Assembly: GCF_002923755.1 (NCBI RefSeq)
Contig: NZ_PGFZ01000003.1
Span: 62,001 to 126,000, forward strand
Reading direction: 5' to 3'
Length of the DNA stretch: 64,000 nt
From: Methylovulum psychrotolerans
Lineage (GTDB): Bacteria; Pseudomonadota; Gammaproteobacteria; Methylococcales; Methylomonadaceae
In this document: piece after piece, positions 20,496-22,043 of the stretch
How positions within the stretch are numbered: position 1 is the first letter of the stretch
Layout: every line of letters begins with the position of its first letter
The notes under the pieces: model-generated
What the model was told of the DNA's origin: nothing
Databases searched by the model: none
Seen by the model: only the letters and a program-made list of their open reading frames with translations
Program-made: the position numbers and the translations under genes

Positions 20496-21575
20496 ATGAG
20501 TTTGCTAAAACTGGATATTTATCACGTCCGCAATATTCACAAGGCTTCTTTACAGCCTTGCCCGACGCTGAATTTATTGGTTGGCGACAATGCCAGCGGT
20601 AAAAGTTCGCTGTTGGAAGCGATTTATATTTTAGGCAGGGCGAAATCGTTTCGCTCTGCCAGCATTAAGCCGGTGATCAGCCTGGATCAGGAGCATCTGA
20701 TTGTCTCCGCGCAAATTCAACAAACCGCCGAGGGCGGTGTCAGTCAGTTGGGCATCCAGCTTGACGGCAAAACCATGGCGATACGCATTAACCAAGAAAC
20801 CCGCCAACAACGTTCAGAACTGGCTTATGCCTTACCCGTACAGCTTATTCACCCAAAAAGTTACGAGTTGCTGGATGGCGGGGCGCAACTGCGCCGCGAG
20901 TTTTTGGATTGGGGCGTTTTTAACGCCGACACCCGTTTTTTGCCGATGTGGCGACGTTTTAAGAAAGCCTTGGCGCAACGTAATGCCGCGCTAAAGATAA
21001 AACGCTTTGAGCAATTGGCGGTTTGGAACCAAGAGCTGGCGTATTACGGTACAATAGTGCAAGACTATCGGCAGCGTTATCTGGAAAAATTGCAGCCTGT
21101 GTTTATAGCGATTAGCCGCCAATTTTTGGCGCTGGACACCATCACCTTACAGTTGCTGTGCGGTTGGGACAGTTCTAAAACCTTGCTGGAAGCGTTAGAA
21201 CAGGATATGGATAAGGATTTGCGCTATGGCTTTACCCATAGCGGCCCGCACCGGGCGGATTTTCAGGTTCGCGTGGAACAGCAATTGGCTAAGGAGTTTG
21301 TGTCACGCGGGCAGCTAAAGCTTTTGGTGTTGGGTTTAAAGCTGAGCCAAGTGCAATTGCTGGCGGACGGGCAACAGCCTTTAGGCTGTGTGCTGGTTGA
21401 TGATTTTGCCGCCGAACTGGACAGCTGCAACCGTGTTAAGTTACTGGATTTTTTGGTGGCGCTCAATTGTCAGGTATTTATCACCGCCACCGCCGCTACC
21501 GATTTTGGCGATTTAAGCCATATACCTAATTATAAAATGTTCCGCATGGAACAGGGTTGTGTGAATCCGTATTAA
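20496..21575 (+). CDS. recF: DNA replication and repair protein RecF
   Basis: 359 residues from the ATG at 20496, 10 bases after dnaN; longer frames from 20412 run through dnaN and are rejected. Walker A is GDNASGKSSLLEAI (about 33-46), the signature region is SRGQLKLLVLGLKLSQ (about 270) and Walker B is CVLVDDFAAELD (about 300). RecF loads RecA at gaps with RecOR. The last codons (MFRMEQG) contain TGTTCCGCATGGAACA (21538-21553), a degenerate copy of the parS-like palindromes that follow, so the array starts inside recF. Confidence 0.95.
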   Translation: MSLLKLDIYHVRNIHKASLQPCPTLNLLVGDNASGKSSLLEAIYILGRAKSFRSASIKPVISLDQEHLIVSAQIQQTAEGGVSQLGIQLDGKTMAIRINQETRQQRSELAYALPVQLIHPKSYELLDGGAQLRREFLDWGVFNADTRFLPMWRRFKKALAQRNAALKIKRFEQLAVWNQELAYYGTIVQDYRQRYLEKLQPVFIAISRQFLALDTITLQLLCGWDSSKTLLEALEQDMDKDLRYGFTHSGPHRADFQVRVEQQLAKEFVSRGQLKLLVLGLKLSQVQLLADGQQPLGCVLVDDFAAELDSCNRVKLLDFLVALNCQVFITATAATDFGDLSHIPNYKMFRMEQGCVNPY

Positions 21576-21781
21576 TGTTCCACATGGAACATGGCCATTT
21601 GGGTTTGTCCCGATGTTCCACGTGGAACATGGCCGTTCGGGATTGCCCCGATGTTCCACGTGGAACATGGCCGTTCGGGATTGCCCCGATGTTCCACGTG
21701 GAACATGGCCGTTCGGGATTGCCCCGATGTTCCATGTGGAACATGGCCGTTCGGGATTGCCCTGATGTTCCACGTGGAACA
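21576..21781. repeat. parS-like palindrome array, six copies at 38-bp period
   Basis: Six 16-bp palindromes start at 21576, 21614, 21652, 21690, 21728 and 21766, exactly 38 bases apart. Copies 2, 3, 4 and 6 are TGTTCCACGTGGAACA; copies 1 and 5 carry one change each in the core (CACATG, CATGTG). The 22-base spacers are near identical (TGGCCGTTCGGGATTGCCCC then GA), and the first is diverged. The palindrome equals the known chromosomal ParB-binding parS consensus of Pseudomonas-type bacteria. Position beside oriC fits centromere function. parA and parB are not in the window. Confidence 0.85.
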
Positions 21782-21936
21782 TCAACCTAGTCTAAATGGC
21801 TTGATGTCTGATAAAACCACTTAATTTGAAATTGGGCGTTTTCGTAAGCTTGTTCACGAAGATTCGGTAAACGCTAGCTTATGCCCGATCTTTAAGCATA
21901 TTTCACCTCGCCCCATACGCAGTCTATAGCTAGTGG

Positions 21937-21942
21937 TATAAT
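21937..21942 (+). promoter_or_regulatory. Extended -10 promoter upstream of gyrB
   Basis: TGGTATAAT (21934-21942) is an extended -10 element with a perfect TATAAT. No good -35 box lies 16-18 bases upstream, as is common for extended -10 promoters. A start near 21949 would give a gyrB leader of about 125 bases that contains two further parS-like palindromes. Confidence 0.5.
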
Positions 21943-21989
21943 TAGGCCACTATAACAAAGCACTTTATTCTCAATTTGAGGTTAATTAA

Positions 21990-22043
21990 TGTTCCACGTG
22001 GAACATGGCACTAGCAAACCAATGTAATGTTTCACATGGAACA
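21990..22043. repeat. Two further parS-like palindromes before gyrB
   Basis: TGTTCCACGTGGAACA at 21990-22005 is a perfect palindrome. TGTTTCACATGGAACA at 22028-22043 is a variant. They are again 38 bases apart, like the main array, but their intervening sequence is different. They lie inside the predicted gyrB leader, so ParB binding here could also affect gyrB expression. Confidence 0.8.

Follow-up and report, generated by a model that had tools for sequence, protein, structure and literature searches.

A regular parS cluster between recF and gyrB of a Methylovulum species, with a period that looks like the length of the RecF tail

The window analysed here, a stretch of 64,000 nucleotides from Methylovulum psychrotolerans, carries a series of short palindromes between recF and gyrB, within the gene order dnaA-dnaN-recF-gyrB. 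A scan of the window with the pattern TGTTCCACGTGGAACA, allowing up to three mismatches, returned nine parS-like matches (five exact, two with one mismatch and two with two), where shuffled windows gave a mean of 0.19 matches and none of 100 shuffles reached nine. Seven of these sites stand in a single 38-bp register (21538-21781), and the remaining two form a separate pair with the same distance (21990-22043). The features to which the text refers are as follows, in window coordinates.

18748 to 19384, plus strand: probable oriC, between dnaA and dnaN, with 10 matches to what we take to be the DnaA-box motif
20496 to 21575, plus strand: recF; the list of open reading frames (ORFs) starts it at 20412, and the start at 20496 was picked by comparison with the recF of a relative (L040)
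21538 to 21553, no strand: parS-like site 1, two mismatches, within recF codons
21576 to 21591, no strand: parS-like site 2, one mismatch, its first base being the base after the recF stop
21614 to 21629, no strand: parS site 3, exact
21652 to 21667, no strand: parS site 4, exact
21690 to 21705, no strand: parS site 5, exact
21728 to 21743, no strand: parS-like site 6, one mismatch
21766 to 21781, no strand: parS site 7, exact, closing the 38-bp array
21782 to 21989, plus strand: 208-bp segment between the array and tail B, with no recognised gene
21934 to 21942, plus strand: perfect extended -10 (TGGTATAAT, presumably the correct form of this motif), a tentative candidate for the gyrB promoter
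21989 to 22027, plus strand: tail B (MFHVEHGTSKPM*), the relic of a second recF tail, now separate from the gene
21990 to 22005, no strand: parS site 8, exact, within tail B, at the ancestral first position
22028 to 22043, no strand: parS-like site 9, two mismatches to TGTTCCACGTGGAACA, at the ancestral second position
22076 to 24490, plus strand: gyrB, an ORF matched in relatives

A preliminary description of this DNA had counted six palindromes exactly 38 bp apart, a degenerate one in the last codons of recF and two more before gyrB. The array, its period, the degenerate site and the last pair are all real, and the run in phase comprises seven sites, since the site within recF lies exactly 38 bp ahead of the next. 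The near-identical 22-base spacers of that description hold among the units from 21576 to 21728; behind the site at 21538 the spacer is part of the recF coding sequence, and behind 21766 it differs from the others. No base in 38 separates the units that start at 21614, 21652 and 21690; relative to these three, 2 positions are changed in the unit at 21728 and 5 in the one at 21576. This is the pattern of a tandem duplication and, as had been proposed, a recent one; because the genome is a draft of 97 contigs, the identical units may have been miscounted.

The array sites are palindromes of 16 bp close to the parS consensus, which we take to be TGTTNCACGTGNAACA, and they are clustered near the probable origin, about 2.2 kb beyond the group of ten DnaA boxes. 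When the whole draft genome (5.19 Mb) was scanned with up to two mismatches, 11 sites were found, nine in the array and the pair and two isolated elsewhere (C12 and C67), both with two mismatches. All seven sites with at most one mismatch lie at recF-gyrB, as do two of the four with two mismatches, and the reversed control pattern matched once. With only those two isolated sites outside recF-gyrB, the possibility that the 38-mer is a dispersed repeat, against which the preliminary description had advised a genome-wide check, was rejected. The same scan over 20 genomes of the genus found a match in 18: two sites in 11 genomes, three sites in three, a single site in two, four in G203 and, at the other extreme, the 11 of the window's own genome. 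M. miyakonense is among the species with two sites. Compared by RecF, the window has four relatives with a species or genus name, and three of these are Methylovulum. Sites occur at the junction in 16 of the 19 other genus genomes, those in which the fetched stretch reached gyrB, so that the recF-gyrB junction seems to be the main parS locus of the genus. Across the order, three or more close sites were found in 8 of 311 genomes by a pattern blind to sites that carry other changes or stand further apart, the window's cluster being the largest among those listed; an exact parS pair was present in 74 of the 201 order genomes scanned (of 311), and the reversed control gave 0 in every row listed.

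The partner proteins are encoded in the same genome. A ParB gene stands behind a gene for a ParA-type ATPase on the same contig (G000:C23:291199), about 207 kb from the array, which supplies the location of parAB that had been asked for; its product has the ParB_N, HTH_ParB and ParB_C domains, and the ParA domains were read from the fetched part of the neighbouring gene. Four more parB-family matches lie elsewhere in the genome. Aligned to Caulobacter ParB (6t1f), the protein (P0001, from L005) has the equivalents of R173 and G201, an arginine and a glycine described as absolutely conserved across ParB orthologues, and a histidine at the position of Q162, a parS contact reported as conserved between ParB and Noc (PMC7383237, in the text available). 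The identification of the sites as parS thus stands on a conserved site and place, on a ParB with parS-reading residues and on the selection within recF codons described below.

Between parA and parB lies a small ORF (L005 516-779; G000:C23, about 290.2 kb), the start of which, KRGGLGRGLEVLL, resembles the ParB N-terminus KRGLGRGLDALL. It has matches in 12 of 61 family genomes, its own included, and none in Pfam or NCBIfam, and it may encode a ParB-like partner of ParA.

Single parS clusters appear to be commoner on plasmids, according to the accessible part of one source (PMC10387095), and the preliminary description had called the array plasmid-like. None of the 72,556 plasmid and 50,697 phage records searched gave a match, and a plasmid or phage origin was rejected on this ground. 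The array is not an iterated centromere of the plasmid type either: it sits within dnaA-dnaN-recF-gyrB, some 207 kb from parAB, at a place conserved in relatives.

The origin of the period can be read from these relatives, which we assign to the family Methylomonadaceae. A RecF search was positive in 113 of the 151 family genomes and yielded 112 recF-gyrB junctions, the window included, of which 108 are distinct and four pairs are identical. This count leaves out 11 loci from outside the RecF search and the unplaced recF ends of L129 and L130; from the separate reading of individual junctions, L043, L057 and L138 were dropped because their fetched DNA has no gyrB, and L040-L042 because they are copies of L050, L044 and L051. 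In 108 of the 112 junctions a site overlaps the last 75 bases of recF (L077 and L084 have a recF end without any site at up to two mismatches), and 97 junctions hold two sites. The next site follows 38 bp on in at least 70 junctions, a lower bound because L010, L069 and L071, where recF runs into gyrB, were tallied as single despite sites 38 bp apart; in 65 of these it begins on the very base after the recF stop. The first site encodes Phe-His-Val-Glu-His in RecF (FHVEHG), and the 22-base spacer encodes the remaining residues and the stop, which ends in register 72 of the 82 spacers of 38-bp pairs in the fetched relatives. Among 58 distinct spacers that end on the stop, a mean of 13.1 of 22 bases are identical: the length is constant and the sequence varies, which is what one would expect of a coding tail whose length is fixed. 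Since the second site starts right after the stop, the 38-bp distance is made up of one parS and what remains of the RecF tail. The other spacings in the family (35, 37, 39, 41, 43-45, 47, 53-56, 67 and 77 bp) mostly occur where the tail is longer or continues into the second site, or where additional bases follow the stop. In the wider class, an exact pair was found in 8 of 185 genomes, and the seven pairs other than the window's own are spaced 26, 29, 31, 32, 38, 41 and 43 bp. Helical phasing, which had been offered as one reason for the regularity, is rejected by this spread (26 to 77 bp in relatives) and by the period itself, as 38 bp divided by 10.5 gives 3.62 turns. The 38-bp pitch looks like the length of the RecF tail.

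Where the first site overlaps codons, the choice of codons bears on whether the DNA or only the protein is held. The comparison used 74 loci fetched by RecF similarity alone, a subset without the loci already fetched by the exact-pair pattern that therefore leans against a claim of selection (its first spacing is 38 bp in 41 of 76 junctions), with the recF bodies of other loci as background. At the tail, His is CAC in 67 of 72 cases (89 of 382 in recF bodies), Val is GTG in 67 of 69 (123 of 801) and Glu is GAA in 63 of 63 (503 of 665); Phe is TTC in 42 of 74 (160 of 820), a contrast that is not decisive since TTT fits parS too. Judged from these counts, which come from related species rather than independent events and in which the contrast is large, the codon choice of the RecF tail shows selection at the DNA level for parS. 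In the window's recF the coding site at the tail is redundant: the copy at 21538 has decayed, with its two mismatches and a change of HV to RM in RecF, while the non-coding site at 21990 is exact.

Two recF tails are present in the window. The gene itself closes with tail A (MFRMEQGCVNPY*), which contains the degenerate parS; tail B directly precedes the ancestral second site and gyrB. The spacer of tail B matches the recF tail of a relative at 19 of 22 bases, a value reached by none of 2000 shuffles. The sites at 21990 and 22028, with this remnant of a recF tail, are the ancestral pair. The same arrangement occurs in G203, whose RecF is nearer to the window's than that of any other locus read (80% identical): both genomes have a different upstream tail A (GCVNP[YF]) and a downstream tail B of the ancestral type, whose site in G203 is exact though no longer coding, with unrelated DNA between. 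In place of the array, G203 has a 1.2-kb insert with an ORF of 248 aa (L050 / L040 4355-5101) that weakly matches a PADLOC model for a type II restriction enzyme (E 1.8e-6) and has no match in Pfam or NCBIfam; no integrase was seen in that insert. The 208-bp segment of the window is not alignable with it (local score 101.5 forward and 106.0 reverse; shuffles mean 104.3, maximum 121). Tandem duplication of the junction is also seen in two other genera, once with three sites and the 38-bp recF-tail unit present twice with an identical spacer (G213), and once with the junction present twice, 84-85 bp apart (G643). By eye, L072 and L139, both of one genus, have an insert in common; it lies upstream of gyrB, flanked by duplicated parS sites, and its small ORFs resemble parts of toxin-antitoxin systems.

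The array units themselves resemble recF tails less closely. The main unit matches at best 12 of 22 bases, a score reached by 48 of 2000 shuffles (the mean by 170); the first unit reaches 11 of 22 (252 of 2000; the mean by 58) and the last 13 of 22 (15 of 2000; the mean by 45). With spacers only weakly like recF tails, their descent from such a tail rests mainly on the length of 22 bases, the TGGC start and the GA end.

The reading we favour, with a probability of about 0.8, is that the array is a parS cluster which forms the chromosomal centromere of a Methylovulum species and has expanded where it stands, its pitch being set by recF-tail geometry. A pair of similar 16-bp sites at a distance of 38 bp would invite slippage or unequal recombination, by which whole 38-bp units would be added. 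We infer that the recF tail was doubled first, that DNA came to lie between the copies, as shared with G203, and that 38-bp units derived from a recF tail multiplied afterwards. By what is established for ParABS systems, every parS should load ParB-CTP clamps, which then slide and bridge, and loading should rise with the number of sites. ParB would accordingly be expected to bind the array, its clamps sliding outward from each site and bridging, and nine sites at some 2.2 kb from oriC may form one strong centre of ParB loading, serving ParA-driven segregation and the loading of SMC.

Some integrases restore their target when they insert at tRNA genes, and a mobile cassette that entered at the 3′ end of recF and restored it in a comparable way could have brought the extra tail and the DNA beside the array. 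The layout common to the window and G203 would fit such an event, as would the DNA held between duplicated parS sites in G113 and G254 and an insert ORF weakly like a restriction enzyme; however, that lone ORF lacks a domain match and an integrase beside it, a duplication followed by an insertion gives the same layout, and tail duplications exist without any insert (G213, G643). We consider the cassette unlikely.

It also seems improbable that the 38-bp pitch was selected for itself, adjacent ParB clamps or ParB-ParB contacts needing it and the length of the RecF tail having adapted to it. Such selection is possible because 38 bp is kept in five junctions where the stop sits elsewhere and in three more where recF runs into gyrB; the constancy of the pitch across drifting spacers would follow from it too, and in L078 and L079 a third site stands at 38 bp after a spacer that is not recF-like by eye. 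Against it are the other spacings in the family (35 to 77 bp) and the class, where just one of the seven non-own pairs has 38 bp, and the lack of a whole number of helical turns.

A role of the array in gyrB control, to which the preliminary description had pointed for the last two sites, is possible. That the sites mainly control gyrB, with ParB on the leader repressing transcription or the paired palindromes folding in the mRNA, is quite improbable. The ancestral pair mostly starts 75-135 and 35-100 bp before gyrB in relatives, and at class level five of the seven non-own pairs adjoin gyrB, four of them without a recF match in the fetched stretch; proximity to gyrB is also proximity to oriC, however. 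The leader RNA with the last pair (21949-22100) folds better than its shuffles (z -2.63, 2 of 200 as good), but this follows trivially from two palindromes. In Pseudomonas aeruginosa, an excess of ParB lowers gyrB, whereas when ParB or functional parS1-4 are missing the rise is confined to PA0010-PA0015, close to the intergenic parS3 and parS4, and the genes near the intragenic parS1 and parS2 are not raised without ParB, as far as the available text of that study goes (PMC5521831). The last two sites are not a special element of gyrB, as the same pair is found at most family junctions read. Promoter evidence is slight: the extended -10 motif occurs 3 times in the window for 1.73 expected (27 of 100 shuffles reach 3), and no sigma-70 promoter with two hexamers was found in 20400-22200 for 2.4 expected. 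A neutral minisatellite or an assembly artefact that is not parS at all, which three identical units in a draft assembly might suggest, is hardly credible given that 108 of 112 junctions have palindromes at this position and that the codons are biased at the DNA level.

Parts of this arrangement are already known. In P. aeruginosa, parS1 and parS2 are chromosomal sites within recF, in the dnaA-dnaN-recF-gyrB operon near oriC; unlike the window, that genome has four sites near oriC and six elsewhere, and a 38-bp array is not described in the text available (PMC5521831). The Myxococcus xanthus chromosome likewise clusters many parS in one short stretch, bound by ParB in vitro and with the consensus TGTTCCACGTGGAACG, but as 22 repeats within a 3.12-kb probe, for which the accessible part of the source describes neither a fixed pitch nor a link to recF (PMC3899335). 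Caulobacter crescentus also has two close chromosomal sites; these are a pair only, 42 bp apart, with further sites elsewhere, in the text available (PMC10387095). The nearest counterpart is the recF-tail pair of the other members of the family, at the same place and mostly with the same 38 bp, with mostly two sites where the window has nine. A search of the open-licence literature found no paper on parS in methanotrophs, and just two that mention the recF gene together with parS and ParB. What is new here is the largest expansion of the recF-gyrB junction among those listed and the likely cause of its period.

A regular parS array, in which phasing would be a tempting explanation, thus probably has a simple cause in the geometry of a gene end and tandem duplication, and a centromere site overlaps codons of a DNA-repair gene, with a codon bias at the DNA level. 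The occurrence of two, three, four or nine sites at this position in different genomes offers a natural test of site number against ParB loading. More tentatively, and with the odds in our judgement against it, the recF tail might be a self-amplifying centromere module: with a site in the last codons repeated after the stop, 38-bp units would be gained and lost by slippage, centromere strength would evolve quickly and the duplicated ends would provide a slot for foreign DNA between recF and gyrB.

Triple parS clusters were also noticed at two other loci, L164 (1501-1600) and L165, whose fetched flanks have no recF or gyrB match; the first site of L164 sits at the apparent 3′ end of another gene.
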